IMG/VR virus record: IMGVR_UViG_3300035698_005767 | Coordinates: 1 to 23,752 of that record | DNA length: 23,752 nt | Reading direction: 5' to 3' (one strand) | Source of the DNA: a virus | In this document: in pieces, positions 7,502-22,970 of the stretch | Layout of the letters: every line of letters starts with the position of its first letter | How positions within the stretch are numbered: the first letter of the stretch is position 1 | Notes under the pieces: model-generated | What the model was told of the DNA's origin: nothing | Seen by the model: the letters and a program-made list of their open reading frames with translations, nothing else | Database searches by the model: none | Position numbers and translations under genes: made by a program

Positions 7502-7912
7502 ATGAAATATTTAAAACTATTTGAAGATTATAAAGACGATAATTTGAAAATATATAAACAACACCGAAAAGGTTATAAAGATAATTACTTTCTATATCAT
7601 TTCTTTTTAAACAACGAAAAAATTGGATATATGTTTGGTTTTATAGAAAATAATATATTTAACTTAATAGGAATTAAAATTGAAAATGAATATAGAAATA
7701 AATCATTAGGTGAAAAATTTATAATAAAATTTTTAAAAGATAATAAAGATATATCAATCCTTTCTGATAATGAAACAAGGAAAGAAAGAGCTGATAAAAT
7801 GTGGCAAAGAATATCTAATCATCCAGATATAATTGTTAAGTCCAAAAATATAAAGAGTCATTTCACCTGGAATGAAGAAAGTTATAATATTTATACAGCT
7901 AAATCAAAATGA
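7502..7912 (+). CDS. GNAT-family N-acetyltransferase with MKYLKLFEDY leader
   Basis: 136 residues. The central 'NLIGIKIENEYRNKSLGEKF' is GNAT motif A: a strand followed by an R-N-K-S-L-G loop in the place of the acetyl-CoA pyrophosphate-binding R/QxxGxG/A. 'NETRKERADKMWQRI' matches the late GNAT helix that often contains N..A..W. It should transfer an acetyl group from acetyl-CoA to an unknown protein or small molecule. The first ten residues, MKYLKLFEDY, precede the fold and resemble the starts of four other genes in the window, so they may be a removable targeting leader. It lies 10 bases after the HAD gene and 25 bases before the tape-measure gene, so is probably co-transcribed with them. 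Confidence 0.72.
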   Translation: MKYLKLFEDYKDDNLKIYKQHRKGYKDNYFLYHFFLNNEKIGYMFGFIENNIFNLIGIKIENEYRNKSLGEKFIIKFLKDNKDISILSDNETRKERADKMWQRISNHPDIIVKSKNIKSHFTWNEESYNIYTAKSK

Positions 7913-7937
7913 AACTGAATTATTTAATAAATAATAT

Positions 7938-9581
7938 ATGGCAATTCCAAAAAATTTAGAAGAAGTAGGTTATAATCAAGCTACCGTTAATATGGATGTA
8001 GATGCTCTTGTAAGAGAATCTATGATTCGTTTATTTGGTCTTGTTGATGATGCAGGACAAACAATGACAGATAATGACGAAAAGTATGAAAAAGATGCTG
8101 AAACTAACCTTGGTTTAAATCCAGACAATTCTGGTGCAGCTTCTTTAGTTAAACAATTTATTCTTTTAGAAGGTAAAGTTCTTGGTTTTTTATTCCAACA
8201 ATTTTTATCAATGGTTAAACCAATTCAGACTGCATTGGAATTACCACAATTATTAACTAACCCACCCCAATTATTACAGAAAATAAAGGACATTATAGAC
8301 GGTATTAAGGACTTAATCAATGATGTGATAACATTCTTCACTGATACTTTAAATTGGTTCCTTGGACTTCTATTAGGGGAAATAATGGATGTTAATATAC
8401 CTATACCACCTTTAGAATTTACTATTTTAGGAATTAATATACCAATACCTGCAATTGATAATTTGAATAAATTTGGGAAAGAGCCTTTCCTTGAAAAATT
8501 AACCGATAAAGTAAATAAATTAAAAGATAGTATTGCAAGTAAGAGAGATAGAATAAAAAATTTAACAGATAAAATTAACCCAGATATAGATACATATCAA
8601 ATAGCAGGTATAGCTTTATTAACTGCACAATTATCTAAGTTATTATCAGTAGATGTTCAATATAATGATGAATTTTTTGAATTAGCTAAAAAAATTCAAA
8701 ATGAAGTAATTTTACAAAAAGATAAAATTATTAGAAATAACTTAAATGAAAAACAAACAAAAGATTATAAATTCAAAGATCAATCAATAAAATTACAATC
8801 ATATAAGAATTATTTAGTAGAACACACCGAAGTAAAAAACCACATAAATATTTATTCAGGTAGTCGAACAGAATTATTAAACATGGCAGATAATATAATC
8901 CAATTATTAGAAACCGAAGAAAAAGAAATAGAAGATACTATTAATAACTATAAAATGGAATCGGATGAAGATTTAAAAGATAAATTCGATAAACTAGATG
9001 TAAAACTAAATAAATACACCGAAGAATTATTAAAGTTATATGACAAGATAAGAACTACTGGATCTGATATTGACGACACTATTGATAACAGAATTAAAAT
9101 GGATAATAACGTAAGAGATATGTTAGTAGCTGGTGGTGGGTTAGCAGCTGTAGAAGCAGCAAAAACAATAAAAGATTTAAAACAACAAATTAAAGAAGAT
9201 AGAAATGAAATGGCAGAAGAAAGTCCAGCATCAGCTTGGATTGATTCGATGATTGATTTAGTCATTGGAGTTATTAAATCACCCATAGATATTGTCATTA
9301 ATATTATATCAAAAGTAATCGAAGGTATTTTAGAATTTATAACAGAATTACCTTTACCAACATTTACAAAAATAAAAGAATTTTTCTCTGATTTATTAGG
9401 ATTAGCAAATCCCGAAAAAATGCAAACTATTTTATCTGAAATGATAGTTGATATTAGCGGAGCAGGTGAAGAATTTTTACCAGTAATAGAAAAAGTTGTT
9501 AATTTCCTTCCTTGGTTATTTGTCGAAATAGCTAAAACATTTATAGTAAGCGTTGTAGAGCCACTACCAATTCCAATTTAA
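7938..9581 (+). CDS. tape-measure-like tail protein (T4 gp29 analogue)
   Basis: 547 residues, the longest intact non-sheath late protein except the endonuclease. Architecture fits a tail length-determining protein: a helical N-terminus; hydrophobic/amphipathic segments at about 70-160 with 'TFFTDTLNWFLGLLLGEIMD' and Pro-rich 'IPIPPLEF'; a long charged coiled-coil at about 185-425; then a second hydrophobic helical block, 'IDSMIDLVIGVIKSPIDIVI' onward, to 'LPWLFVEIAKTFIVSVVEP'. T4 gp29 has about 590 residues. With the usual rule of about 0.15 nm of tail per residue, the predicted tube is roughly 80 nm, slightly shorter than T4. Position after sheath, tube and gp26-like genes supports the call, but no family motif is decisive. 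Confidence 0.65.
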   Translation: MAIPKNLEEVGYNQATVNMDVDALVRESMIRLFGLVDDAGQTMTDNDEKYEKDAETNLGLNPDNSGAASLVKQFILLEGKVLGFLFQQFLSMVKPIQTALELPQLLTNPPQLLQKIKDIIDGIKDLINDVITFFTDTLNWFLGLLLGEIMDVNIPIPPLEFTILGINIPIPAIDNLNKFGKEPFLEKLTDKVNKLKDSIASKRDRIKNLTDKINPDIDTYQIAGIALLTAQLSKLLSVDVQYNDEFFELAKKIQNEVILQKDKIIRNNLNEKQTKDYKFKDQSIKLQSYKNYLVEHTEVKNHINIYSGSRTELLNMADNIIQLLETEEKEIEDTINNYKMESDEDLKDKFDKLDVKLNKYTEELLKLYDKIRTTGSDIDDTIDNRIKMDNNVRDMLVAGGGLAAVEAAKTIKDLKQQIKEDRNEMAEESPASAWIDSMIDLVIGVIKSPIDIVINIISKVIEGILEFITELPLPTFTKIKEFFSDLLGLANPEKMQTILSEMIVDISGAGEEFLPVIEKVVNFLPWLFVEIAKTFIVSVVEPLPIPI

Positions 9582-9600
9582 TATTTTAATATATATTCCT

Positions 9601-10204
9601 ATGAAGTATTTAAAATCATATAATGAATCTTTAAGAGATAAGATGACTCCTAAATCAGAAGATGAAATAGAATATGCAATAGAGAAAATGAATTCTATTG
9701 ATATATTAAAACTTATTTGGAGAGAACGATTAGATAAAACATATACACCAACAGATGATAAAATACGAGAAGATATAAAATCTGTGGATGCTTTTGAAAT
9801 AATTAAAATCATAAAAGAAGGTATTTTAGATGAAAAATTTATGCCAAGTAAAGAAGAAATTTCAAACAGTATGTCTGATCCTAATATTATTTTTAAATCA
9901 ACAAAAAAAATGGGCTGGTGGATCATTAATAGGATATGTTTATGCATCTTATAATGATTTGTTTGAATTGTTTGGTGAACCAGAAGAAGGTGATTTTGAT
10001 AAAACATCTATGGAATGGTTTTTAGAAGATAATCATGGTAACATTGTTTATATATATGATTACAAATCAACTAATTTATATGATAATAGTTTACCATCAG
10101 TTGAAGAAGTTAAAAATATGAAAACATTTGATTGGCATATCGGAGGTAGAAACCAAGAAAACGCTAACAATTTAAGTGGATTTATTTATAAAAAAATATT
10201 ATAA
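9601..10204 (+). CDS. single gene split by a +1 frame change at an A8 run; MKYLKSYNE leader, helical repeats and conserved phage C-terminal domain
   Basis: Two overlapping frames read as one 200-residue protein if one A of the A8 run at 9903-9910 is skipped. Frame one starts MKYLKSYNES and has about two and a half helical repeats of roughly 32 residues, each beginning D-x-x-x-x-P-[ST]-x-[DE]. It would otherwise stop at 9952-9954. The +1 frame then encodes a well-structured domain: 'GGSLIGYVYASYNDLFELFG', 'KTSMEWFLEDNHGNIVYIYD', 'DWHIGG'. That is the ATYxxLxxxFGxP / EWxLEDxxGxVxxIYDxK pattern I associate with a conserved phage protein of unknown function. The second frame has no credible start of its own. 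Explanations are transcriptional slippage, a sequencing indel or a recent mutation. The leader resembles that of the GNAT protein. Confidence 0.7.
9903..9910 (+). other. A8 homopolymer at the frame junction
   Basis: Eight consecutive A's in 'ACAAAAAAAATGGGC'. Removing one A (or adding two) joins the two frames of this gene without a stop. Runs of this length are known substrates for RNA-polymerase slippage and are also common sites of sequencing indels. Confidence 0.7.
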
Positions 10205-10206
10205 AA

Positions 10207-11160
10207 ATGAAAAATTACAACGATTTCGTAAATGGAAGATTAAATGAAGAAAAAGAATTTGGTGGTTCATCAGGTGCTAATAAAATAGGTGGATTATTGA
10301 AAAATTTACTCGGTGGATTAGTAAAAGATTTAACAGATGAATTTAAAAAACCATTAGAAGATTTTAATAAAAAATTAGGAAATCAAAAAGATAAAGATAG
10401 TGTTATTAAGGTTGTTAATGATTATTTAGCTAATCATAAAGTCAATTTAGATAAAACAATGGAAGAATCTAAAACTATACCAGATATAGTTAAAACAATT
10501 GAAAGTAATCTAAAAACAGCATATGGTGCAATCGAGTCTACTGTTACGAATTTTGGTAATGATAAATATACATTTGAAGAAATATTTGCTGATGCACCTG
10601 ATAGAACTAAAAAATTAATGAGTAGTAACCCCAAAAAATTTCCCGATAGAGTAATACAATTTTCTAAAGATTTAGTTTTAAGTTTTGGTAAACCATATGG
10701 AGTTACAAAAGAAGATGTAAATCAAGAACCCGAAAAGGCTACTGATCAAAACCAAAAAGAACAAACAGACGAAGCAGCCCCAGATTTAGCAAAACAAGGA
10801 GAAGGACAAGGTACAGAACAAACAGGTACAGAAAAAGTAGAACATTTACATTCTGATTACACTGACAAATTATTTGAAGCTATAAATGAAGATGATATAC
10901 CAAAACTCAAAGCAGATATTATTAAATGGTTTGATAATACAATTTATAAAAACACAAAAAATTCATTAGAAGAAGTAAGGAAAGAAGAACCTGAACAAGA
11001 AGGTAGTGGGGATTTAAATACAACTATTGATAACATGTCAGTTGATGTAAATAAAGATAGTGTTAAAAAAATGGTTGATAAATTAGCTACGAGTGATAAA
11101 AACACTATAATAAAAGTTCGTGATATGTTAGGACTTGATGCAGATAATGCACCATTATAA
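10207..11160 (+). CDS. late protein with MKNYNDF leader and acidic Gln/Glu linker, unknown function
   Basis: 317 residues, starting 2 bases after the previous stop. The first residues, MKNYNDFVNGRLNEE, closely resemble the capsid-targeting leader of T4 internal proteins (MKTYQEFIAEA). Next comes a Gly-rich amphipathic segment at about 18-41, helical charged sequence to about 165, a disordered acidic linker at about 171-212 rich in E/Q/T/G, and a helical C-terminal region ending DMLGLDADNAPL. No catalytic motif is visible. The composition (acidic, helical, low complexity) suits a head core, scaffold-like or internal protein, but a tail accessory role is equally possible from its position after the tape measure. 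I do not recognise a family. Confidence 0.7.
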   Translation: MKNYNDFVNGRLNEEKEFGGSSGANKIGGLLKNLLGGLVKDLTDEFKKPLEDFNKKLGNQKDKDSVIKVVNDYLANHKVNLDKTMEESKTIPDIVKTIESNLKTAYGAIESTVTNFGNDKYTFEEIFADAPDRTKKLMSSNPKKFPDRVIQFSKDLVLSFGKPYGVTKEDVNQEPEKATDQNQKEQTDEAAPDLAKQGEGQGTEQTGTEKVEHLHSDYTDKLFEAINEDDIPKLKADIIKWFDNTIYKNTKNSLEEVRKEEPEQEGSGDLNTTIDNMSVDVNKDSVKKMVDKLATSDKNTIIKVRDMLGLDADNAPL

Positions 11161-11173
11161 AAAAAAATTGATA

Positions 11174-11857
11174 ATGAAACATTTAAAAAGATTTAACGAA
11201 GCTAAACAAGAAATTAAGTATAAAGACTTACAAGAAACTATTGATGGTGTATTAGATAGTCTTTCTGAAAAGGGTAAATTATCTGATTCCGAAAAAGAAT
11301 TTATGACAGCAGCTGCTAATGATGAAGTTAAATCTGTAACAACACCACAATTAACAGGAAATTTTTGGGCTGATATGTCAAACCCACACAACATGGGTAT
11401 AATGTGGCAAGGTGTAGATGGTACATGGAAACAATTAGAAGAATTACCAATATTAAAATCTGTTAATATGAGAGGAAAAGATTATAAACATCTAAAGGGA
11501 ATGAGCCAAAGTGATAAAGAATGGGAAGTAGAAAAGATTAAAGAAAGAAAAGTAATATTGAAACAAAACCCTGGATTAGAAGAAGATTTAAATAAATTAT
11601 TAAAAATGTTTATAAAATCAGAACAAGAAGAAACAACAGGGATTAAAAGAGTAGCAAATAATATGTTAATAAAATGGACTAAACCATACGAACAATGGAA
11701 AAAACCAGATGATACTGATAATAGTGGGGTTTCAAATTATAATTATAATCAAATAATAGATTATGCTTTTAATGGGACATTTCACAGTCTAATAAATCAA
11801 TTTGGATATTGGGAAGGTCCTGATGATTTTGATTATGTAATTTATTCAAAAGATTAA
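11174..11857 (+). CDS. late protein with MKHLKRFNEA leader, unknown function
   Basis: 227 residues from the ATG at 11174. The frame is open upstream to a possible start at 11135, which would overlap the previous gene by 26 bases, but MKHLKRFNEAKQE matches the other leaders in the window and lies 13 bases after the preceding stop, so I choose it. The body is helical and charged at first (about 12-50), then has 'GNFWADMSNPHNMGIMWQGV' and 'GTFHSLINQFGYWEGPDDFD', rich in Trp and aromatic residues, suggesting a folded C-terminal domain. No known family recognised. The peptide F-N-E-A just after the leader resembles a T4 prohead-protease cleavage site (I/L-x-E before A/G/S). It is the last gene before a terminator. 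Confidence 0.72.
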   Translation: MKHLKRFNEAKQEIKYKDLQETIDGVLDSLSEKGKLSDSEKEFMTAAANDEVKSVTTPQLTGNFWADMSNPHNMGIMWQGVDGTWKQLEELPILKSVNMRGKDYKHLKGMSQSDKEWEVEKIKERKVILKQNPGLEEDLNKLLKMFIKSEQEETTGIKRVANNMLIKWTKPYEQWKKPDDTDNSGVSNYNYNQIIDYAFNGTFHSLINQFGYWEGPDDFDYVIYSKD

Positions 11858-11882
11858 ATAAATAAATTAAAACTTTAATATT

Positions 11883-11913
11883 CCCATTGAATACAATATT
11901 CAATGGGTTTTTA
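11883..11913 (+). terminator. intrinsic terminator closing the tape-measure transcript
   Basis: Perfect 11-bp stem CCCATTGAATA / TATTCAATGGG with a 3-nt loop CAA, followed by TTTTTATTG. It divides the virion-type genes from the glycosyltransferase block. Confidence 0.86.
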
Positions 11914-11969
11914 TTGTTTTAGACCGCTCCTAAATAATAAATACTTATAGAAAAAATAATAAATCCAAA

Positions 11970-12998
11970 TTGAATAAATCAATTATAATTTCTTATCGTG
12001 AAAGTTCAGAAGAAAGAAGATATAATCTTAAATGTGTTCTTGATAATTTATCACATATACAAGATGGTAAAACAGAAATATTAATCATTGAACAAGATGA
12101 TACAACAAAAATAGATTGGTTATCTGAAATTAGAGGGAATCAGTTCATTAAACATATCTTTGTAGAGAACGATGGTATATTTAATAAAGGATGGGGATAT
12201 AATATAGGTGCTAAAATGGCTGAATCCGAAGTATTGATTTTTCATGATTCTGATTTATTTATTAAAATTCAAACATATGGTATTGCACTAAATATTTTGA
12301 AAACGTGTGATATTGTAAATCCTTATAAATCTGTGGTTTTTTTAGATGAAGAATCTAGTAAACTTTTTAAAGAACGCAATTATAGTTTTTCGGTTGCAAA
12401 TACTTTTAAACCTGTAATACACACTATTATAACAGGTGGTATATTTCTTATTAAGAAAGATGTATATTTTAAATTAAAAGGATTTGATGAAGATTGTTAT
12501 GGGTATGGTCATGAAGATGATATTTTTGATGAAAAAATAAGAAAACTAGATTTAAAAGTCCAAACATTAAATGATGTATCAATACATATGCATCATGAAA
12601 GTTCTGTTGATAATATTGGATTATATTATTCATTTAAAGAAATTAATAAACAACTTTTTGCTGAATATGTTAAATTATCTAAACAAGATATTATTAATAA
12701 AATTCAAAACATAGATGTATGGGGAGATATCAAATCGGATAAATCTGGTGAAGTATCAACTAGACACATTAAAAGAGAATTATACAAATTAATATCTGAA
12801 AATATAATTAATCATGTTTTATCCAAATTTACGGATAATTATTTAGATGAAATAGTTAATAACATTTCAACTAAAATATACAATGATATTGTTGATGTGG
12901 TATCTGAAAAAGTAAAAAATGAATTAAGTAATATTAATTATTCTGAAAAAGATAAAGACGGTATATTAAAACAAATAATGAGAAAATTTAAAATATAA
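11970..12998 (+). CDS. GT-A fold glycosyltransferase (GT2/GT7-like) with C-terminal coiled region
   Basis: 342 residues beginning at TTG (11970). No ATG lies between it and the upstream in-frame stop at 11931-11933, and the translated start NKSIIISYRES is the normal first strand of this fold. 'EILIIEQDD' is followed by 'NKGWGYNIGAKMAESEVLIF' and the metal-binding HDSD (93-95). 'TGGIFLIKKDVYFKLKGFDE' with 'GYGHEDDIF' (180-186) is the galactosyltransferase C-terminal signature, and 'HMHHE' lies at 206-210. Residues about 215-342 form a helical extension, perhaps for oligomerisation. It would transfer a sugar from a nucleotide sugar to an unknown acceptor. It is first in a run of four sugar-transfer genes, with the next starting 3 bases after its stop. 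Confidence 0.85.
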   Translation: MNKSIIISYRESSEERRYNLKCVLDNLSHIQDGKTEILIIEQDDTTKIDWLSEIRGNQFIKHIFVENDGIFNKGWGYNIGAKMAESEVLIFHDSDLFIKIQTYGIALNILKTCDIVNPYKSVVFLDEESSKLFKERNYSFSVANTFKPVIHTIITGGIFLIKKDVYFKLKGFDEDCYGYGHEDDIFDEKIRKLDLKVQTLNDVSIHMHHESSVDNIGLYYSFKEINKQLFAEYVKLSKQDIINKIQNIDVWGDIKSDKSGEVSTRHIKRELYKLISENIINHVLSKFTDNYLDEIVNNISTKIYNDIVDVVSEKVKNELSNINYSEKDKDGILKQIMRKFKI

Positions 12999-13001
12999 AA
13001 T

Positions 13002-13736
13002 ATGAAAAAAATATGTATAATAATTCATTTATACTATACTGATTTATGGGATGAAATAAAAGGTTATTTAGATAATATAAAATATGATTATGATTTACAT
13101 ATTTCTCTATCTGATAATAATGAAGAAGATAATAACATTTTTTTAGAAAAAATAAAAGATTTAGATAACGTATATATTTATAAAGTAACTAATAAAGGAT
13201 TAGATATTGGTCCTTTTCTAGCTGTTTTTAATATAATAGTTAAAAAAGGATTCGATTATGGGCTGGTATTAAAGTTACATACAAAAAAAGGTTTACATGG
13301 TGGTAGAAACCCTGAAAGGGGGGAACATTGGAGGAATAATTTATTAGTTCCGATATTAAATAGCACCGATATTGTTGATAATATAATTAAACAATTTGAA
13401 GAAGATGGGAGTATAGGTATTATAGGTTCAAATAAATGGTTAATTACTAAACATCATCCTGGATTTATTTATAACCATAAAGATATAATGGAATATATAG
13501 AACAATTTAATATAAAAACAAAATTTGAAGATATAAGATTTATAGGTGGTACAATATTTTGGTGTAGGTTTGATGTTTATAAAGAATTTTTTACAAAACA
13601 CAATATGATAGAAGTGTATAACGAATTAGAAACAGGTGCATTTACAGATTCTAGTTCATCAAGAAAAACACACGCATTAGAAAGAATAATGTCACTAATC
13701 ATGATGGATGCAAATAAAAAAATAATAGGTATATAA
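13002..13736 (+). CDS. RgpF-like (rhamnan synthesis F) glycosyltransferase-type protein
   Basis: 244 residues matching the core of the rhamnan synthesis protein F family: 'NKGLDIGPFLAVF' (64-76), 'LVLKLHTKKGLHGG' (88-101), 'HWRNNLLVPIL' (109-119), then 'IGIIGSNKWLI' and 'FIGGTIFWCRFDVYKEF'. In bacteria, RgpF-like proteins take part in assembly of rhamnose-containing cell-wall or O-antigen polysaccharide. In a phage they may modify virion proteins or host surface sugar. There is no signal peptide, so it acts in the cytoplasm. It sits 3 bases after the first glycosyltransferase, and its TAA overlaps the next ATG (TAATG), indicating translational coupling. The family call is good; substrate unknown. 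Confidence 0.85.
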   Translation: MKKICIIIHLYYTDLWDEIKGYLDNIKYDYDLHISLSDNNEEDNNIFLEKIKDLDNVYIYKVTNKGLDIGPFLAVFNIIVKKGFDYGLVLKLHTKKGLHGGRNPERGEHWRNNLLVPILNSTDIVDNIIKQFEEDGSIGIIGSNKWLITKHHPGFIYNHKDIMEYIEQFNIKTKFEDIRFIGGTIFWCRFDVYKEFFTKHNMIEVYNELETGAFTDSSSSRKTHALERIMSLIMMDANKKIIGI

Positions 13737-14563
13737 TGAACAAATATAGTGTTAGTTATAATGTCTTTGATGGAGTTGAATTATTAGAAGATTCAATAAA
13801 ATGTATAAGAGAACATGTTGATCATATATCATTGATTTTTCAGACTACATCATATTGGGGTAATAAATTATCACAAGAAGAAGTTGATATTGTTAATACA
13901 TTGAGAAAAGATGGATTAATAGATGACTTAGTTCATTTTACTGAGAAAATGGATGTTAGAATAATACAAACATATAAAAGAAATTTAGGAAGAAGATTAG
14001 CAAAAAAGAATGATTGTACACACTATATGACAATGGATTGTGATGAATTTTATACTAAGGATGAATTTAAAAGAATGATAGAATATCATAATAACAATCC
14101 TGATAAAATATCTTACATACCATTAGAAGCATATTATAAAGATACTAATTATATGATAGATAGTAGTACATATATGGATGGTGATTTATATGTTAGTGGG
14201 TTTTTTCCTGTTGATAATGAAATTGTACTTGGATTTCCTTTAAAACTAAAAGTTGATCCAACCAGAAAACCAAATGTTTCTGATGTAAGTAGATTTAAAA
14301 TTTGGGAAAAAACTGAATTAAAAATGCACCACTTATCTTATGTGAGAGCAAATATACACCAAAAAGTTAATAATGCATTTGCTAAGTTTAGATATAAAGA
14401 TAATAAACAAAGATTTGAAAAAATATTACAATGTTATGAAAATTATGAAACTAACAAAGTAGCATTATCAGCAGATGGTGTAGAATATAATATTAAAACT
14501 TTAGATACACCAGAAATAATATTAGATAAATATTATGAAAATATTAAGTATATAAAGAAATGA
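13736..14563 (+). CDS. glycosyltransferase-like protein, paralogue A
   Basis: 275 residues. The first strand 'YSVSYNVFDGVELLEDSI' and the DxD-type motif 'TMDCDEFYTKDEF' (D101-E104) indicate a GT-A fold transferase of the GT2/GT92 kind. 'ELKMHHLSYVRANI' is a conserved histidine motif late in the domain. About half of its positions are identical by eye to the next gene, including 'LKVDPTRKP', so the pair is a tandem duplication. Its start overlaps the previous stop by one base (TAATG), and its own stop overlaps the next start (ATGA), so three genes are coupled. Acceptor and donor cannot be told from sequence. Confidence 0.8.
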   Translation: MNKYSVSYNVFDGVELLEDSIKCIREHVDHISLIFQTTSYWGNKLSQEEVDIVNTLRKDGLIDDLVHFTEKMDVRIIQTYKRNLGRRLAKKNDCTHYMTMDCDEFYTKDEFKRMIEYHNNNPDKISYIPLEAYYKDTNYMIDSSTYMDGDLYVSGFFPVDNEIVLGFPLKLKVDPTRKPNVSDVSRFKIWEKTELKMHHLSYVRANIHQKVNNAFAKFRYKDNKQRFEKILQCYENYETNKVALSADGVEYNIKTLDTPEIILDKYYENIKYIKK

Positions 14564-15387
14564 ATAAATTAGGAATAAGTTATAATGCATTTGATGGAGT
14601 TGAATTAATAGAAGATTCAATAAACCATATAAAAGAATTTGTCAGTTACATATCAGTAATTTTTCAAACAGAATCATATTGGGGTGAGAAATTATCACAA
14701 GAAGAAATTGATATCGTAGAAGATTTAAAAGAAAGAAATGTGATAGACAAATTAGTTTATTATAATGATAATACACAATCAAAAGTTGTTACACAAACAA
14801 ATAAAAGGAATTTAGGAAGAACATTAGCAAAAGAAAATGGGTGTACTCATTTTATGTCAATGGATTGTGATGAATTTTATACTAAGGATGACTTTAAAAG
14901 AATGGTAGAACACCACGAAAATAATCCACTTGATGTATCTTATATGCCAATTAAGGATTATTATAAAGATAGTAAGTATTTGATAAAAGGTAATGATTAT
15001 AAAAAACCAGGTGGTATGTATGTTAGTGGTATTTTTCCTATTGATACTGAAATTACATTTGCATTTCCACTAAATTTAAAAGTAGATCCAACAAGGAAGC
15101 CAGGTATATCTGATACTAATAAAATTAAAGTATGGGGTCTTACTGAAGTAGTATTACACCATATGTGTTATGTAAGAGCTGATATTTATAAAAAAGTATA
15201 TAATGCTTGTGCAAAACAAGGTTATGGGAATAAATTAGACCATTTCAAATATTTAACCGAGTGTTATGATACGTTTGAAACAAATAAGAAAGCAGTAGGA
15301 GCAGTTGGTAGAGTATATGATGTGATTGATATTTTTCCTGAAATAATCTTGAAAAAATATTATGAAAATCTAAAAAAATTAAAATAG
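14560..15387 (+). CDS. glycosyltransferase-like protein, paralogue B
   Basis: 275 residues, the same length as its upstream paralogue, with the same blocks: 'ISYNAFDGVELIEDSI', 'SYWGEKLSQEEIDIV', 'KRNLGR', 'SMDCDEFYTKDDF', 'LKVDPTRKP', 'VLHHMCYVRADI', and the shared ending PEIILxKYYEN. Differences cluster at residues about 55-80 and 135-160 (around the sugar-binding loops), so the copies may use different donors or acceptors. Translation starts at an ATGA overlap with the previous stop. It is the last of the four sugar-transfer genes; the ATPase gene follows 6 bases after its stop. Confidence 0.8.
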   Translation: MNKLGISYNAFDGVELIEDSINHIKEFVSYISVIFQTESYWGEKLSQEEIDIVEDLKERNVIDKLVYYNDNTQSKVVTQTNKRNLGRTLAKENGCTHFMSMDCDEFYTKDDFKRMVEHHENNPLDVSYMPIKDYYKDSKYLIKGNDYKKPGGMYVSGIFPIDTEITFAFPLNLKVDPTRKPGISDTNKIKVWGLTEVVLHHMCYVRADIYKKVYNACAKQGYGNKLDHFKYLTECYDTFETNKKAVGAVGRVYDVIDIFPEIILKKYYENLKKLK

Positions 15388-15393
15388 AAAAAT

Positions 15394-16599
15394 ATGAATG
15401 AATTGAGAAGATTGCCCTTTGGGGATGAAAGTGTAATTAATACATTGAGAGCGAACGGTAGAAGTAAACACCCCGAAGATATTAATATCTTAGAAGTATT
15501 TTATAATAAATATAAAAAAAGACCGTCATTATATAAATTTGAAATAGAAGATAATGATTATTTTTATTGGGTGGAACTTTTAAATAACTTATCTGAAATA
15601 TATCCAAATATGGAAGAATATTTTAAAGAAGAAGTTAGATCATTAACCCAAGATTTAAGATACAATAAACAACAAACGTTAATTCTCAGAGAAGGATTAT
15701 TACTTCAATTAGAAGGATGTATTGCAAGAAATTTATTTTTAGAATCTCACTCATTAAAAGATTCTGATAATGTTGTTACGTTTTCTCTGTTTTTACTTGA
15801 TGAACCTTTAACTGAAGAAGAAGATGATAAATTACATAAGGCATTTAAATCCTCAGTTATTGTAGAAAAAGAAACTATTACTATTGGTATGGTTTCTTAT
15901 GATGATGGTAGTTTTTATGTAAAAGATTTTGATATTAAAGACAAAATACAAGAATTACAATTATTAGATTTACATTATGGTAAAGGATTCGAAGATTTTG
16001 ATAAAGCACTATATGAAAGATTATTAAATGAACATAAAGGTTTAACTTTATTTCACGGAGATCCAGGTACAGGGAAAACAACATATATTAGACACCTAAT
16101 AAAGAAAATTAAAATGAATGATAAGAATAACAATATTCTTTATTTCCCACCAACAATGGTAGGTTCTATTACTGAACCAGGTTTTATTAATTTTATTTCT
16201 GAATGGGTATCTGATAGTAAAGGTAAGAATTACCTTCTTATTGAAGATGCTGAACCATTATTAGAATCAAGAAACCAATCAAGAAATATTGGTATTACTA
16301 ATTTACTTAACCTAACCGATGGTATTCTTAATGATGTTCTTAGTATTCAAATTATTGCTACTTTTAATACAAATCTTAAAAATGTAGATAGTGCTATATT
16401 AAGAGCTGAAAGATTATTAGCAAGAAAAGAATTCAAAGTGTTAACTAAAGAAAAAGCTATTGTGTTAGCTAAAGAAATTGGAATTGATGAATCATTAATT
16501 ACAAAAGAAATGTCATTAGCTGATTTTTATGCACTTAAAAAAGATTCTAAACCATTAACACACGATATTGATGAAGAAAACAAAAGAATTAGTTTTTAA
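15394..16599 (+). CDS. AAA+ ATPase, Bcs1-like
   Basis: 401 residues. An N-terminal domain of about 200 residues without a recognised family is followed by a AAA+ module: Walker A 'GDPGTGKTT' (222-230), Walker B 'YLLIEDAEPLL' (280-290) with the E-D-x-[DE] form seen in Bcs1-type ATPases rather than the usual DE pair, a 'LLNLTDGIL' helix, sensor 1 'IIATFNTN', and 'SAILRAERLLARKEF' in place of the arginine-finger/GR region. These ATPases remodel or translocate folded proteins; some phage members are of unknown role. It starts 6 bases after the glycosyltransferase paralogue and ends the + strand block, before two terminator hairpins. The ATPase call is firm; function open. Confidence 0.85.
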   Translation: MNELRRLPFGDESVINTLRANGRSKHPEDINILEVFYNKYKKRPSLYKFEIEDNDYFYWVELLNNLSEIYPNMEEYFKEEVRSLTQDLRYNKQQTLILREGLLLQLEGCIARNLFLESHSLKDSDNVVTFSLFLLDEPLTEEEDDKLHKAFKSSVIVEKETITIGMVSYDDGSFYVKDFDIKDKIQELQLLDLHYGKGFEDFDKALYERLLNEHKGLTLFHGDPGTGKTTYIRHLIKKIKMNDKNNNILYFPPTMVGSITEPGFINFISEWVSDSKGKNYLLIEDAEPLLESRNQSRNIGITNLLNLTDGILNDVLSIQIIATFNTNLKNVDSAILRAERLLARKEFKVLTKEKAIVLAKEIGIDESLITKEMSLADFYALKKDSKPLTHDIDEENKRISF

Positions 16600-16636
16600 T
16601 CAAAAAATAAGGGTTTTTATTTTTAATATATAAATA

Positions 16637-16708
16637 CACACATCCACACTTTATCTTTGCTTTATGCAAAATGTGTATATGTGTACCACAAATAACCACT
16701 ATATATCC
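16637..16708 (+). ncRNA. possible structured small RNA or long 3' leader in the convergent gap
   Basis: An imperfect stem-loop: ACACAT (16638-16643) with ATGTGT (16679-16684), ACAC (16646-16649) with GTGT (16673-16676), and an apical TTTGC-TTTAT-GCAAA (16656-16670). TATAAATA lies just upstream (16629-16636) and a terminator starts at 16710, so a transcript of about 100 nt is possible. It contains no useful open frame. It may simply be the 3' untranslated end of the ATPase mRNA. Confidence 0.28.
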
Positions 16709-16709
16709 A

Positions 16710-16750
16710 GGGAATATAAATTATAATGATTTATATTCCCTTTAATTTTT
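16710..16750 (+). terminator. intrinsic terminator
   Basis: Twelve-bp perfect stem GGGAATATAAAT / ATTTATATTCCC, loop TATAATG, followed by TTTAATTTTT. It ends + strand transcription from the glycosyltransferase/ATPase block or from the small RNA candidate. Confidence 0.8.
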
Positions 16751-16783
16751 AAAAAATGTGTATTTTTAAACTAAAAAGCATTA

Positions 16784-16822
16784 AAAAGGGAAAATAATAT
16801 TAACTATTTTCCCTTTTCTTTT
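16784..16822. terminator. bidirectional terminator between convergent blocks
   Basis: Stem AAAAGGGAAAATA / TATTTTCCCTTTT with an 8-nt loop ATATTAAC. T-rich tracts follow on both strands, so it can stop the + block and the - strand gene that ends at 16847. Confidence 0.8.
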
Positions 16823-16846
16823 TATTACTATGAAAAAAAAACGACT

Positions 16847-17116
16847 TTATGAGTATGTTAATTCTTGTACTATTTGATCATATCCAAATACAGTATTCCA
16901 TGATTCTGTTGTACCAGTTGAGCCAACAGGAACACCATAATATTGATAAGCTAAACCACCATCATTAGAAAATCTTTTTGGTTCAGCTACAAAAGTTGGA
17001 GAACCTAAACTACGTTCAGTGCAATATTGAGCTACTGATGCAGCATCTGCTCTTAAATATACATCGTTGATTGCGAAGTACTGTACATTTATTTTAGGGT
17101 AAGTTATTTTTGGCAT
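16847..17116 (-). CDS. small protein of unknown function, possibly virion-associated
   Basis: 89 residues beginning MPKITYPKINVQYF. Unlike its Lys/Ile-rich neighbours it is rich in Y, V, S, T, G and A and poor in lysine, with alternating hydrophobic positions that suggest a beta-structured, exported or assembled protein such as a capsid or tail decoration. There is no Cys pair and no membrane segment. It is the last - strand gene before the convergent terminator and has an 89-base leader of its own, so it may be transcribed separately. The decoration idea rests only on composition; no family recognised. Confidence 0.68.
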   Translation of the reverse strand: MPKITYPKINVQYFAINDVYLRADAASVAQYCTERSLGSPTFVAEPKRFSNDGGLAYQYYGVPVGSTGTTESWNTVFGYDQIVQELTYS

Positions 17117-17205
17117 ATCTTTATAATTTCTTTTTTATTATATATTAAATTTCTTTTACCGAATTTTACGGTTGTTATACTATATATAAAAAACTCATTT
17201 TAATT

Positions 17206-17460
17206 TTATTCTTCTTTCTTTTTACGACCTCGTTTCTTTTGATATGGTTTCCCAATTTCATATTTTCCCTTTTCAATACAATTTACACAAAATAAAGCAT
17301 AATAATCCATTGAAGGGAATTCGGGGCTGTGTTGTAATACCCAAAAGAAATCACTTGGTTTTAAATCACTATCTGTCGGATCTAATAAGCAATCCGCACA
17401 AACGGGTATTTCCTTTGATTTCTTTTTAGGTGCTGATTTTTTGTAATATCTCTTTGCCAT
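17206..17460 (-). CDS. small zinc-ribbon protein with basic tails and AT-hook-like end
   Basis: 84 residues. A basic N-terminus (MAKRYYKKSAPKKKSK) is followed by two Cys pairs, C21/C24 (CADC) and C58/C61 (CVNC), about 33 residues apart, a classic zinc-ribbon layout. The C-terminus 'PYQKKRGRKKKEE' contains the K-R-G-R-K core of an AT-hook. Together these suggest a nucleic-acid-binding protein, perhaps a transcription or DNA-packaging accessory factor suited to A+T-rich phage DNA. It lies in the - strand block with short gaps on each side. Zinc binding is likely; DNA binding is inferred. Confidence 0.75.
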   Translation of the reverse strand: MAKRYYKKSAPKKKSKEIPVCADCLLDPTDSDLKPSDFFWVLQHSPEFPSMDYYALFCVNCIEKGKYEIGKPYQKKRGRKKKEE

Positions 17461-17492
17461 ATTATTATATATAACATGACATTGGTTTATAA

Positions 17493-17729
17493 TTAAACTT
17501 TCTTATATTCGGGTATAGTTTTTTTACCCCTATCAAATAAATCCAATGTTAACATAACGAGACTAGAAATAAATCCCCTTCCTTCTACTGTATCATTTTC
17601 TATTTCATCAATAATACGTTGCTTAGAAAAGACATCTTTACCTCTTATTAGATAAGGTTTATCTAAATCACCATCTTTTAGAAATTTATCAATAACTTCT
17701 TGTTTTAATTCTTTAATTAATTTTTCCAT
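17493..17729 (-). CDS. small protein of unknown function
   Basis: 78 residues, MEKLIKELKQEVIDKFLKDG at the start. The first half is amphipathic helix; the middle has 'YLIRGKDVFSKQRIIDEIEN' and the end 'SSLVMLTLDLFDRGKKTIP'. There is no transmembrane segment, Cys pair or catalytic motif. Its start lies 4 bases after the stop of the small membrane protein upstream, so the two are probably co-translated. Not recognised. Confidence 0.65.
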   Translation of the reverse strand: MEKLIKELKQEVIDKFLKDGDLDKPYLIRGKDVFSKQRIIDEIENDTVEGRGFISSLVMLTLDLFDRGKKTIPEYKKV

Positions 17730-17733
17730 AATT

Positions 17734-17856
17734 TCATATAATTGGTTTCCACTTGGATTTAAAAAATCTTTTACCTAATATATCAAAGAGTTTAAAAAAC
17801 CCATAGATAAATATCCATGAAAACGATAATAATACTATTAATAATGCTGTATTCAT
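17734..17856 (-). CDS. 40-residue single-pass membrane protein
   Basis: A short open frame, ATG at 17856 and TGA at 17736-17734. The protein begins MNTALLIVLLSFSWIFIYGF, a single strongly hydrophobic segment (about residues 4-21), followed by a positively charged tail (KRFFKSKWKP). By the positive-inside rule the C-terminus would be cytoplasmic. It fills the only sizeable gap between the methyltransferase and the 78-residue gene, and its stop lies 4 bases before the next ATG, as expected for a real gene in this operon. It could be a small host-membrane effector or lysis-related peptide; neither is shown by sequence. Confidence 0.6.
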   Translation of the reverse strand: MNTALLIVLLSFSWIFIYGFFKLFDILGKRFFKSKWKPII

Positions 17857-17887
17857 AATGTCTTATATGTTAGGTGAATAAAAAAGT

Positions 17888-18913
17888 TTATTTTTGAACA
17901 ACTATACAAGATAGTTTACTATTAAGTATAGCATTGGGAAATACTTTTTCAACTATTGGTAATAATTCTTTTAATCCATAATATTGTTGATATGAATCTC
18001 TACCTTTAACTTCACCTGGTTCTTTCCCTTTTATTTTATAATCAGAATAGATATATACTTTACCGCCTTCTTTAATAGCATTTTCAGCTTGTTTTAATAC
18101 TTTTAATTGTTCGAATTCTTCTTTTATTACATTCAGAACATTAAATATTGTAACTGAATCTGATTTACCATTACTGGTTATTTCTTGAACCATTCTATTA
18201 TGTTCTTCACTTTTATTAAATGGATCATATATGTAATTAGTAATCCCTTCATTTAAGAAAAAATTAGTCATTAAATTAAATTTACCACCACCAATATCTA
18301 AATTTATTGAATTATGTTCTAATTCATTTTGTTCTATTAAGACTTTAGCTGGTTTTGGTATATGTTTTATTGAAGTTTTAGCTGATGAAAATTCTTGTTT
18401 TGGAACAGACCACACAGAATCTTCTATCAAAGGTAATACAATTTCTTCCCAGTACCCTTTAGAACCGATTTTAGACATATTTATAACATCTGATACATCC
18501 AACCACTTCCTACTCCTATCCATTGATTCTAATACGTTAAAACCCTTATAATCGTCTTTAACGAACATCCATTTGTGGTGATATATCTGTGGTGTTGATT
18601 CTTCTTTTGTTTTCGTTACTTTACCTTCATTAGTTACTTTATAAGCATCAGATACAATTGGTTCATCTGCCGTATCAAAATCAGGAGAATTAATAAATGA
18701 AATAGTTTCATTTTTATTATTATACTTTATGATATTAAATTTAATACCTTTTGGTAAGTTACTTTTTAGTTTATTATAAAAAATTTCATCAATATATTCA
18801 CCAACGTAATCTTTATGGAAATATAAATCATTCCCCATTTTCTTCCCAACATCTTTATATCTTTTTATAGAAGAACCTTTTTTAGTTTTTATATTTCCAA
18901 CAACAATATTCAT
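17888..18913 (-). CDS. two-domain protein with C-terminal SAM-dependent methyltransferase fold
   Basis: 341 residues. The C-terminal half is a class I methyltransferase: motif I 'NLDIGGGKFNL' (D206-G210) for S-adenosylmethionine, acidic residue D230 in 'IYDPFN', a post-motif 'VTIFNVLNVIKE' (254-265), and 'AENAIKEGGKVYIYSDYK' as the next strand. The N-terminal about 170 residues, with 'GKKMGNDLYFHKDYVGEYI' and 'MFVKDDYKGFNVLESMDRS', form a separate domain I cannot name. The motif IV position reads NVLNVI, not the DPPY/NPPY of typical adenine-N6 methyltransferases, so the target need not be DNA. It starts 3 bases after the upstream gene stop, so they are likely coupled. Confidence 0.75.
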   Translation of the reverse strand: MNIVVGNIKTKKGSSIKRYKDVGKKMGNDLYFHKDYVGEYIDEIFYNKLKSNLPKGIKFNIIKYNNKNETISFINSPDFDTADEPIVSDAYKVTNEGKVTKTKEESTPQIYHHKWMFVKDDYKGFNVLESMDRSRKWLDVSDVINMSKIGSKGYWEEIVLPLIEDSVWSVPKQEFSSAKTSIKHIPKPAKVLIEQNELEHNSINLDIGGGKFNLMTNFFLNEGITNYIYDPFNKSEEHNRMVQEITSNGKSDSVTIFNVLNVIKEEFEQLKVLKQAENAIKEGGKVYIYSDYKIKGKEPGEVKGRDSYQQYYGLKELLPIVEKVFPNAILNSKLSCIVVQK

Positions 18914-18916
18914 AAA

Positions 18917-19462
18917 TTATTTATTAAACCAAACAACCTTATTAAGTTTGTATCTTAATAATTTTTCTTTGATATCAGATGGAAAAATAGGAACATCAGT
19001 CATTTTTAAAATTTCTATTGGATCTTCTTTTGTTCCTTCATAACTAGTTTCTACATAAAGACCATACCCATCAGAGTCAACAAAACCACCATTTTTAACA
19101 CTATTTTTAAATTCATTTAATGTCATAACTTCCCCACCATCAGGAATGTTTTGTGTTTCATATGGTCTTATTAATCTTAATTCTTTATTTAACGATTCTA
19201 TTTGTTCATCTATATATTTTGTTAATTCAAGATATTCATTAAGAGATTTATTATAATCCCATGTCTTTAATTTAAAATCTTTATCTATTTTTAATTCAGT
19301 AATTTGTTTTCTTAATTTTGAAACTTGTTTCTTTAATAGTTGTTCTTCTTTATTATAAAGAAAGTCACCTTTATTAAAAACATTTCCATCATCATCAATA
19401 TATTCGTTCTTCATATGCCATCCTCTTGGTGGATTACCTACTGGTTTAATACTATCTTCCAT
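18917..19462 (-). CDS. coiled-coil protein of unknown function
   Basis: 181 residues. Residues about 38-95 (from 'EEQLLKKQVSKLRKQITELK') are a strong coiled coil with heptad-spaced L/I. The C-terminal part has 'GGFVDSDGYGLYVETSYEG' and 'IFPSDIKEKLLRYKLNKVVW', probably a small folded domain. The start ME-DSIKPVGNPPRGWHMKN lies next to a 92-base divergent intergenic region, so this is likely the first gene of the unit that continues into the methyltransferase. The ending RYKLNKVV resembles the basic tails of the genes at 21.7-23.4 kb. No family recognised. Confidence 0.7.
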   Translation of the reverse strand: MEDSIKPVGNPPRGWHMKNEYIDDDGNVFNKGDFLYNKEEQLLKKQVSKLRKQITELKIDKDFKLKTWDYNKSLNEYLELTKYIDEQIESLNKELRLIRPYETQNIPDGGEVMTLNEFKNSVKNGGFVDSDGYGLYVETSYEGTKEDPIEILKMTDVPIFPSDIKEKLLRYKLNKVVWFNK

Positions 19463-19554
19463 AATTTTAATTATTATTTTGTACTTATTATATACTAAAT
19501 CTTTATTTTTGTTTATAAAATTAAATATATAGTAATAAATATAATTTAATTATT
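19463..19554. promoter_or_regulatory. divergent intergenic region with probable promoters for both sides
   Basis: The 92 bases separate a - strand gene starting at 19462 from a + strand gene starting at 19555, so both promoters must lie here or overlap the genes. TAATAAATA (19533-19541) precedes the + gene and is one base from the T4 late core. The sequence is almost entirely A/T, so no element can be called firmly. Confidence 0.4.
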
Positions 19555-19845
19555 ATGAAACATATAAGATTATTTGAGGAATTTGGTAAAGAAGATCCTG
19601 ATGCTGAAATTAGAAACAGAGGGGATGTTGTATTCTCCGCTGAAAGTTCAAAAGTGAAAGACAATAAAGATCACTTTCCTATTAATGATTTAAAACACGG
19701 AAGAAACGCATTAGCGATGGTTCAGAAATATGATTCAGTTCCAAAATGGTATGATGGTACTTTGAAAGAAGTTAAAGATGCTGTTATTAAAGCAGTGCAT
19801 AAAAAATTCCCTTCGATTGAAATATCTGAATTAGACGAAGATTAA
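19555..19845 (+). CDS. lone + strand protein with MKHIRLFEEF leader, unknown function
   Basis: 96 residues and the only + strand gene in the - strand block. It starts MKHIRLFEEFGKED, again matching the leader shared by the late proteins at 7.5-11.2 kb. The rest has 'RGDVVFSAESSKVKDNKDHF' and a helical C-terminus ('GTLKEVKDAVIKAVHKKFPS') that ends in acidic residues. Its stop overlaps the stop region of the opposing gene by 4 bases. Being on the late strand and carrying the leader suggests expression with the virion genes. No family recognised. Confidence 0.72.
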   Translation: MKHIRLFEEFGKEDPDAEIRNRGDVVFSAESSKVKDNKDHFPINDLKHGRNALAMVQKYDSVPKWYDGTLKEVKDAVIKAVHKKFPSIEISELDED

Positions 19846-20582: not shown

Positions 20583-21680
20583 TTAAAATTCGGTTTTATC
20601 TAACATCCAATTCCATTTATCAAATGTTAAATATTTATCAAAAATTTGTTTAGATTTTTCAAAAGTGAAATCATCTAATATTTTTTCTATTTGCCAATGG
20701 TCAGGAAGAATATATTTCTTATATTGTGAATATGAATTAATTTCATCCATCTTTCTTTTAACTGTATGATAATCTTTAACAATGTCAAATCTTTCCTCTG
20801 TTAAATATTTATCAGGATCAGATAAAATCATTTTATAAACATCTAATACTTCATCTACATTTTCATCTGTTGTTATAAGTGATGTTGTAACTAAACCCTG
20901 TGTATCTGAAATATTAGCTATGTGATTATGTACACCATATGTCAATCCTCTTTTTTCTCTAATTTCTTTTGTAAATGGGGATTTAAGTGACATACCTAAC
21001 ATATCTAAAACAAAATCAATTTTAGATATATCATCTTCTACTTCAATATAACCTGCTATACATGCTTTATTAAATTTTGAATTATTCTCAAAAACCAATT
21101 CATCAGATTTAATAGTTTTAAAAGTATCAGGGTGAGTTGTACTAAAATTATCAAACCCATTAAATTCTGAATTTTTTGATATGTTTATAATCATTGATGG
21201 TTTAGAAAGATATTTTTGCCAATAATCATTAATATCTTCATAAGTTAAATTTTCTAATGATTGTAATTTACCAATAGGTCCATAATTACCATAAACTTTT
21301 CTTAATAAATTATAATAAGCTGATGAAAATTGATCTTGGAATGTATCTTTATATTCTTGTATTACTACACTTAATTCTGTTTTAAAATCTTTTTCGGATA
21401 CTTTAAATTTCGATAATGAATTAAGAAGTTCATGTCTATATTTGTAAATATATTCATCTAACCCTTTCATATGAAACACGACTTCATTACCCGATGTATA
21501 TGCGTTCCAATTTATAGAATATCTATCAAAGTCATCATATAAATTTTCAAACATCTTACACATTAAATGCTCCATCAAATGGCTGATCCCATAATTTTTA
21601 GGTTCTTCATTTAATACTGAACCTTTATATACAATATAAAAACCACTTAAATCTGTTGGACTCTTTCTATTTATTATCAT
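20583..21680 (-). CDS. M16-family zinc metallopeptidase
   Basis: 365 residues with the complete M16 pattern. The inverted zinc motif H-x-x-E-H is 'HLMEH' (34-38) inside 'YGISHLMEHLMCKMF', and the third ligand is probably E109 in 'LSVVIQEYKD', about 70 residues later as in the family. The C-terminal M16 domain has 'PFTKEIREKRGLTYGVHNHI' (235-254), including the R/Y pair that binds substrate in active members. Two M16 domains in 365 residues make it a compact M16B-type enzyme, near the lower size limit; such enzymes form a clam-shell dimer that degrades or processes unfolded peptides. Its start overlaps the upstream gene by 14 bases. All catalytic residues are present, so it should be active. 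Family call firm; substrate unknown. Confidence 0.88.
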   Translation of the reverse strand: MIINRKSPTDLSGFYIVYKGSVLNEEPKNYGISHLMEHLMCKMFENLYDDFDRYSINWNAYTSGNEVVFHMKGLDEYIYKYRHELLNSLSKFKVSEKDFKTELSVVIQEYKDTFQDQFSSAYYNLLRKVYGNYGPIGKLQSLENLTYEDINDYWQKYLSKPSMIINISKNSEFNGFDNFSTTHPDTFKTIKSDELVFENNSKFNKACIAGYIEVEDDISKIDFVLDMLGMSLKSPFTKEIREKRGLTYGVHNHIANISDTQGLVTTSLITTDENVDEVLDVYKMILSDPDKYLTEERFDIVKDYHTVKRKMDEINSYSQYKKYILPDHWQIEKILDDFTFEKSKQIFDKYLTFDKWNWMLDKTEF

Positions 21681-22716: not shown

Positions 22717-22970
22717 TTATCTTTTATCTTGTCAATTTTTTTATTTCTTAATTCATCCATAGCTATTTTACAATAATATTTACCTGTTCTTGTGTTCCCC
22801 ATAAAATACTTTTGATCCATAACAAACGTAGATTCTCTTTTTATCCATTCTCCAGAATCTTTTTGTATTTTAACTTCTTCTAAAAATTTATAATAAGCTA
22901 AATCCGTTATTTCATTGGAATCAATAAAATTCCAAAAACCTAATTTTTTTATTTCATTTAACATTTCCAT
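22710..22970 (-). CDS. protein of unknown function with KKIDKI tail
   Basis: 86 residues, MEMLNEIKKLGFWNFIDSNE at the start, with a helical middle and 'FVMDQKYFMGNTRTGKYYCK' before the end 'ELRNKKIDKIKDKC'. An alternative start, Met3, lies 6 bases downstream. It overlaps the protease gene by 17 bases. The single Cys residues do not form a zinc motif. Not recognised. Confidence 0.65.
   Translation of the reverse strand: MEMLNEIKKLGFWNFIDSNEITDLAYYKFLEEVKIQKDSGEWIKRESTFVMDQKYFMGNTRTGKYYCKIAMDELRNKKIDKIKDKC

Follow-up and report, generated by a model that had tools for sequence, protein, structure and literature searches.

The 23,752-nucleotide stretch of DNA analyzed here (virus record IMGVR_UViG_3300035698_005767 of IMG/VR, positions 1 to 23,752; hereafter the window) reads as a fragment of a contractile-tailed phage, five of whose predicted proteins open with a similar short leader. 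This leader is a real N-terminal signal that is widespread in the huge phages related to the window. We favor the interpretation, at a probability of about two in three, that such leaders are capsid-targeting propeptides of the T4 type, which have been expanded in this group of phages. On the evidence of sequence, the leader is confined to N termini, conserved at the protein level, shared by orthologues, matched by the internal-protein genes of T4, and followed, after a Glu, by an excess of small residues. The window itself is, by homology, a piece of a huge-phage relative: its tail sheath shows 50% identity to that of the 735-kb uncultured phage LR756501 and 47 to 49% identity, over 76 to 79% of the sheath length, to those of records of 634 to 642 kb, and was found in 67 IMG/VR loci. 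The Mahaphage clade, as described in the accessible part of its source (PMC7162821), takes in the largest huge-phage genomes (634, 636, 642, and 735 kb) and has Bacteroidetes as predicted hosts.

A common leader on five proteins of the window

The original prediction, made from the letters of the window alone, held that five unrelated proteins share an N-terminal leader resembling the T4 capsid-targeting sequence. All five open reading frames (ORFs) are present (Table 1), and each begins M-K-x-[L/I/Y]-x-x-[F/Y]: Lys-2 is invariant, position 4 is L, L, Y, L, and I, and the aromatic residue (F/Y) falls exactly at position 7. The bodies are indeed unrelated, as no pair among the five matches at E<=10 once the first 15 residues are cut. 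That of 7502 is weakly acetyltransferase-like (phrog_21214, E 6e-4) with no Pfam match at E 0.05, and that of 19555 matches Pfam DUF6582 at E 4.9e-5, under the curated cut-off; for neither was a relative found among the ORFs of loci L002-L068. AlphaFold single-sequence models of 7502 (mean pLDDT 51.6) and 11174 (37.7) were too poor to use.

The 9601 leader runs on into a module, LRDKMTPKSEDEI (LRDKMxPKSEDEI), and leader and module recur together in loci L002, L004, and L010 on paralogues whose bodies differ. The 10207 orthologue in L004 (8996-10009; E 3e-89) retains the leader with altered letters, MKKYNEFIQSRLNEE; a viral-contig scan for further relatives of 10207 returned none, yet it missed this very orthologue and is hence uninformative on absence. 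As L004 keeps the leader on its 10207 orthologue and lacks it on that of 11174, and as the 9601 module sits on different bodies, the leader is a module that is gained and lost. A separate leader gene lies between these two orthologues in L004. The leaderless one is preceded by TATCTTTG (L004:10930-10971), which we take to resemble the Bacteroidota promoter form TAnnTTTG; the loss of the leader might accompany a change in expression. As a separate observation, ORFs 9601-9954 and 9830-10204 overlap in different frames and both match the single L004 ORF 7953-9005; on this comparison the overlap is a frameshift, in the gene or in the assembly.

Enrichment at gene starts across huge-phage genomes

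A strict pattern derived from the window, MK.[LIYFV][KRNQTDES].[FY], was counted at ORFs called by a simple script in LR756501, LR756502, 400 of the 462 kb of LR756500, and the IMG/VR sequences G001 (464.6 kb), G003 (179.6 kb), G004, G006, G008, and G009, with T4, PTm1, MaF61, and 200 of the 540 kb of Lak-C1 for comparison. Greedy calling dropped 9601 on account of the overlapping ORFs, so the window contributes four leaders to the called counts rather than five. From the rate at internal ATGs (20 of 8520, seven sequences pooled), 0.08 matches are expected at the 34 window starts against the five present (Poisson 2.5e-8); this figure is post hoc, the pattern having been taken from the window, and the other genomes are therefore the real test.

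A search across large related genomes, proposed as a check alongside the original prediction, finds the strict pattern enriched at gene starts genome-wide. Conditioned on MK, it occurs at 101 of 298 gene starts versus 12 of 288 internal MK sites in LR756502 (642 kb; p 8e-22), 36/151 versus 3/199 in G001 (p 1e-11), 16/66 versus 2/77 in G003 (p 9e-5), 14/246 versus 10/421 in LR756501 (p 0.024), and 4/51 versus 0/103 in T4 (p 0.011). The small contigs are individually weak (G004, 6/45 versus 3/82; G006, 6/37 versus 2/44; G008, 3/16 versus 0/24; G009, 2/12 versus 1/21), and the window is not significant alone (4/8 versus 1/8, p 0.14). PTm1 (3/63 versus 3/86) and MaF61 (1/34 versus 1/117) have no leader set by this measure. 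The closest loci of the window, when pooled (L002-L017, L065), show the pattern at 21 of 188 starts and at 3 of 1171 internal ATGs. With residues 3-14 shuffled within each start, the observed count was reached in none of 200 trials for LR756501, LR756502, G001, G003, G004, G006, and the window, in one each for G008 and G009, and in 4, 19, and 84 for T4, PTm1, and MaF61, respectively.

Combining three patterns raises the counts to 158 of 981 ORFs in LR756502 (internal control, 5/734), 105/1022 in LR756501 (10/723), 61/541 in G001 (0/416), and 34/222 in G003 (0/177), as against 8/310 in PTm1 (4/220), 2/196 in MaF61 (2/147), and 5/268 in T4 (2/175). The 61 to 158 matches amount to 10 to 16% of the genes in the three largest genomes counted. 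A pattern-free tally gives the same picture: F/Y stands at position 7 in 197 starts of LR756502 (79 expected), 108 of G001 (45 expected), and 36 of G003 (19 expected), with z at positions 7 and 10 of 13.2 and 7.1, 9.3 and 5.9, and 4.0 and 5.8, respectively. The peaks in LR756501 lie at positions 5 and 8 (z 8.3 and 7.7), and in PTm1 and MaF61 no position from 2 to 18 is enriched in F/Y (z never above 1.0). Lak-C1 was read in two parts, with TAG as Gln: the strict pattern fits 4 of 114 starts over 150 kb and 0 of 46 over 50 kb, and F/Y is not in excess at position 7 in either (z 0.7 and -0.4, respectively). The leaders are spread over whole genomes, which rules out the tail-sheath neighborhood as their cause.

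Genome-specific spelling and inheritance

The spelling of the leader is specific to each phage. LR756502 uses MKHLKKYNES and MKYLKRYKIFES, and G001 uses MKYLKLFESF. The form in LR756501 is MIKKFxxFINE or MIKKFKLFE, for which a broader pattern matches 107 of 682 genes versus 10 to 18 at five internal offsets. LR756500 has MKYIKEYEEFILE, with 22 of 434 strict matches and F/Y z of 4.4 at position 7 and 4.1 at position 10; the broader pattern is weak there (27 versus 15 internal). Leader genes of G001 occur in tandem arrays (39448-44022, 410192-413931, and 434672-435917) with spellings near MKYLKLFESF, and LR756502.1 has dense arrays at 10332-36490, in several members of which a 'DILLEL.DDG'-like segment follows the leader. 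At leader positions 3-5 in LR756502 several synonymous codons are in use, a variation that disfavors a DNA-level repeat as the explanation.

Leader status is also shared between orthologues, defined as reciprocal-best matches after cutting the first 16 residues. Between LR756502 and G001, 11 pairs bear the leader in both, 12 and 5 in one only, and 186 in neither (p 5e-9). The corresponding figures are 7, 4, 5, and 85 for LR756502-G003; 6, 2, 6, and 61 for G001-G003; 5, 4, 11, and 137 for LR756501-LR756502; and 3, 3, 3, and 126 for LR756501-G001. The pair LR756501-G003 (1 in both, 2 and 7 in one only, 54 in neither) is not significant. One orthologue family bears the leader in all four genomes, with a different spelling in each.

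An upstream element, AATATATA, starts mostly 10 to 19 nucleotides before leader genes in LR756502; within 100 nucleotides of a start, 60 of its 78 occurrences at leader genes lie at this spacing, versus 61 of 136 at other genes. A related motif set precedes 67 of 158 leader genes versus 135 of 823 others across LR756502, and 18 of 26 head/tail genes versus 3 of 13 replication genes, the latter two groups having been picked by homology. These motifs fit late expression of the leader genes without proving it.

The candidate cleavage site and the protease

The likeness to T4 that had been claimed for the window leaders holds at the positions that matter for targeting. Substitutions in T4 IPIII, as far as the available text of PMC9026906 reports them, affect targeting mainly at residues 4 and 7 and processing at residues 8 and 10, and the leader matches the two targeting positions. 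Moreover, the four strict matches among 268 called T4 ORFs are its three internal-protein genes, ipI, ipII, and ipIII, plus 61.1, annotated as hypothetical.

A cleavage site of the gp21 type has the form hydrophobic-x-E, with a small residue next. The residue after the first leader Glu, which none of the three patterns imposes, was compared with that after the remaining Glu residues of these proteins. It is S, A, G, or N in 90 of 150 cases in LR756502 (background 21%), 32/56 in G001 (19%), 17/33 in G003 (20%), and 45/101 in LR756501 (18%), that is, 2.5 to 3 times background in four genomes. With the strict pattern only, the counts are 64/96 in LR756502, 20/31 in G001, and 1 of the 4 called in the window. 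The first leader Glu of LR756502 is mostly at position 8, 9, or 11.

A gp21-type protease had also been claimed for the window. The match is real, and the ORF keeps the His and Ser segments, its GELSH and SSRG aligning with GELNH and SSRG of T4 gp21; the aligned His and Ser are presumably catalytic. No Pfam match was found at E 0.05. The ORF is short and is probably a small paralogue rather than the main prohead protease, because the main enzyme of LR756501 is an 807-aa protein encoded between the portal and major capsid protein (MCP) genes, with a separate small paralogue. In four relatives, an ORF of 690 to 807 aa beside portal and capsid genes encodes the main protease, and small paralogues accompany it in LR756501 and LR756500. 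The window ORF scores best against the small paralogue of G006, then against the main protease of PTm1, and then against the small one of LR756501; the short paralogues of LR756501 and G006 lack the aligned His, and that of LR756501 also lacks the Ser. PTm1 queries detected neither a portal nor an MCP homologue in the window, and the main protease of this phage presumably lies beyond the fragment. Among 13 related records searched, phrog_207 was matched in 9, of which 8 have a long ORF (635 to 811 aa), and not in G004, G007, G008, or G009, all fragments. The main protease itself starts ...LIVE-N in all four relatives aligned; LIE-9 of T4 gp21 is said to fit the cleavage logo in the accessible portion of PMC9026906. 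A shared cleavage site in the MCP was left unused, since the alignment with T4 gp23 failed to bring the T4 site onto the conserved INE-N.

Proteins that carry the leader

When the leader proteins from nine sequences are linked by phmmer together with their leaderless relatives, 154 components result. For Pfam comparisons, proteins under 100 aa and leader ORFs spanning piece joins (4 in LR756501, 7 in LR756502) were left out. The 144 leader proteins of LR756502 (broad set, >=100 aa) yield 17 Pfam families and are mostly without a Pfam name, versus 99 families from 111 conserved leaderless proteins (114 less 3 lying in the same ORF as a leader protein). Among the matches listed for the latter (25 of 99) are DNA polymerase B, ribonucleotide reductase, topoisomerase, thymidylate synthase, Hsp70, the T4-type portal, and gp23; Pfam finds no DNA polymerase, ribonucleotide reductase, or gyrase among the 144. 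One G001 leader protein weakly resembles ART-PolyVal (E 0.0016, below cut-off). The tagged RNA ligase and CCA-adding enzyme of LR756502 (Table 1) could possibly form a packaged tRNA-repair set. A leader family of ~500 aa (LR756502.1:251650 and orthologues) is linked by orthology to a 37-member group; its homologue in Cellulophaga phage phi38:1 (gp37, hypothetical) has no leader. An isochorismatase label for LR756502:207650 was dropped, as it had no Pfam, PHROG, or PDB match.

Table 1. Features of the window and tagged enzymes of related huge phages
Feature	Location	Strand	Remarks
Leader MKYLKLFEDYK	7502..7534	+	136-aa protein, ORF 7502-7912; matches strict pattern
Leader MKYLKSYNES	9601..9630	+	117-aa protein, ORF 9601-9954; YNE-S resembles gp21 cleavage site
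Leader MKNYNDFVNGRLNEE	10207..10251	+	317-aa protein, ORF 10207-11160; matches strict pattern
Leader MKHLKRFNEAK	11174..11206	+	227-aa protein counted from ATG, ORF to 11857 (mechanical ORF opens at TTG, 11135); matches strict pattern; FNE-A resembles gp21 cleavage site
Leader MKHIRLFEEFGKED	19555..19596	+	96-aa protein, ORF 19555-19845; matches strict pattern
Tail sheath ORF	2-1831		phrog_34521, E 1e-47
gp21-type (head maturation protease) ORF	22954-23397	-	147 aa; phrog_207, E 4.3e-17
Tagged T4-Rnl1-like RNA ligase	LR756502.1:491690-492961		E 2e-20
Tagged CCA-adding enzyme	LR756502.1:597869-599053		E 5e-29
Tagged CCA-adding enzyme	LR756501		E 3e-19, inside 1233-aa protein
Tagged PPK2	LR756502		E 6e-77
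Tagged NFACT-R	G001		E 1e-15
Tagged methyltransferase and radical SAM	LR756501

Two further observations concern the genomic context. The window encodes an M16-type peptidase at 20583-21680 on the minus strand (Pfam Peptidase_M16 and M16_C). LR756501.1 carries another short tag genome-wide (loci L084-L120), DPYGEE[N/D/E/I/V]W. The 105 occurrences of DPYGEE are spread over 90 predicted proteins, with 38 at the very C terminus, 19 within the first 25 residues, and 48 internal. The leader pattern is also present on 40 of these 90 proteins (odds ratio 5.1). The small gp21-type paralogue at LR756501.1:11314-11850 (minus strand) ends in DPYGEENWSE and thus carries the tag. DPYGEE was absent from the other 11 sequences counted, a count outside which LR756500 and Lak-C1 lie, and no relevant description was found in the literature as judged by title.

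Weighing the alternatives

Several observations weigh against a capsid-targeting propeptide. An acidic residue followed by Ala or Ser, part of the leader as originally described, holds for two of the five window leaders (NE-S at 9601 and NE-A at 11174) and fails in the other three; with the strict pattern only, the small residue after the Glu is found in just 3 of 11 cases in LR756501 and 6 of 15 in G003, and the spacing of the leader Glu varies. The body of the close 11174 orthologue (L004:10971-11552) stands without the leader. A protease of this type does not imply a leader, since PTm1 and MaF61 have the former and no leader set. The leader was not found on the main protease or on the portal, capsid, and sheath proteins, and nothing here therefore ties it physically to the head. 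Single look-ups identify some leader-bearing proteins as enzymes (Table 1), and the LR756502 set includes single weaker matches to RNase_T (7e-7), DHH (2e-5), and Toprim_2 (6e-4). The occurrence of the leader equally on cytoplasmic enzymes had been named beforehand as a warning sign: it is present on some enzymes and clearly not equally so. The contrast in Pfam content is itself inflated, the leaderless set having been restricted to leader-free proteins conserved in three or more genomes, and the broad set of LR756501 yields 51 families among 121 proteins, a number owed partly to false positives of the broad pattern.

Of other explanations, one would make the leader a sorting tag for a different destination, by which proteins dock at a compartment built by the phage, at the membrane, or at the tail rather than at the head core. 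The leader-bearing enzymes that would be useful in the cytoplasm, the leaderless structural proteins and main protease, and the second tag of LR756501, which implies that short tags are used for more than one thing, or for one unknown thing, agree with it; we consider it unlikely, given that the strict pattern in T4 finds only the three internal-protein genes and one hypothetical gene, that the two key leader positions are the targeting residues of T4, and that the small-residue excess after the leader Glu recurs in four genomes. The leader might instead be the relic of a 5'-end cassette, in which new genes fuse to a ready start region (ribosome site, promoter, and first codons) and the peptide has no present targeting role. 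The position of AATATATA, the tandem arrays, and the gain or loss of the leader between close orthologues would suit such an origin, yet the amino-acid sequence of a cassette inherited passively would erode, and the peptide is maintained through varied synonymous codons and on orthologues with different spelling, making this quite improbable in our estimate. Lastly, a bias of translation starts (A-rich early codons giving M-K) combined with selective reading draws on the over-representation of Lys-2 at the starts of genes in each of the seven genomes tested pattern-free, PTm1 and MaF61 too, and on the nonsignificant MK-conditioned result for the window alone. It leaves the MK-conditioned enrichments of LR756502 and G001 standing, as well as the F/Y enrichment at positions 7 and 10 that PTm1 and MaF61 lack; for the largest genomes it is refuted by the MK-conditioned and pattern-free tests, and we give it scarcely any credence.

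A proposed role in protein delivery

If the leaders are capsid-targeting propeptides, a short N-terminal segment (hydrophobic at about position 4, F/Y at about position 7, and usually Glu at 8 to 14) would be attached to many different proteins and, late in infection, would dock them on the scaffold core of the prohead. The gp21-type prohead protease would then trim the leader, in many cases after the Glu, and the trimmed proteins would stay alongside the DNA inside the head and be delivered to the next host cell. There they might act before phage gene expression in counter-defense, tRNA or RNA repair, or modification of the host. We infer the docking, cleavage, packaging, injection, and all cargo functions.

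A bolder extension, which we offer tentatively and judge a little likelier to fail than to hold, is that the largest known phages (LR756501, LR756502, and their relatives) are protein-delivery vehicles, in which at least a tenth of the genes, or about 100 to 160 proteins, are tagged for capsid loading and injected as an early-action kit. That kit would comprise a tRNA/RNA repair set (Rnl1-type RNA ligase and CCA-adding enzyme), ADP-ribosyltransferase-like proteins, and many fast-evolving counter-defense proteins. Since the spelling of the tag differs by phage, the injected proteome could then be read straight from the genome. For uncultured phages, most of whose proteins have no assignment, such a sequence rule would predict the injected proteome; it would also provide a ready list of counter-defense candidates, as well as short tags with which proteins could be loaded into very large heads. 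The role of the many small unknown genes of huge phages would also become directly testable.

Comparison with known systems

In literature searched for the capsid targeting sequence, for huge, jumbo, and mega phages, and for leader strings, this leader was not found described, most subscription papers lying outside the coverage. A likeness may be drawn to the ejected head proteins of the SPN3US/phiKZ type. According to the accessible text of PMC5694885, SPN3US packages many proteins with its DNA, processes them with its prohead protease, and encodes a diverged protease paralogue. The paralogue is thus a shared feature, and packaging and processing would be shared as well if the leaders act as proposed. 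SPN3US belongs to a different clade from the relatives of the window; three of its propeptides are of 124 to 127 residues and only that of gp45, at 20 residues, is as short as those of T4, and, unlike in the huge phages, no short leader common to many proteins was found in that text.

The closer parallel is with T4. The protease ORF of the window resembles T4 gp21 in its phrog_207 match and its GEL-H and SSRG segments, and differs in its length of 147 aa and in its location among small genes, not beside the portal and MCP genes. The leader resembles the capsid-targeting sequence of IPI, IPII, IPIII, and Alt, the last a packaged ADP-ribosyltransferase (PMC9026906, accessible portion), in being short and N-terminal, with hydrophobic or aromatic residues at positions 4 and 7; in both systems a Glu ends the propeptide, actual or predicted, the proteins are diverse, and a gp21-type protease is encoded. 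In T4, the sequence serves a handful of proteins, with four strict matches in all. In contrast, the huge-phage leaders are found on 61 to 158 genes in each of the three largest genomes, in a spelling specific to each, and would, if the device is the same, represent its expansion to that many proteins per genome.

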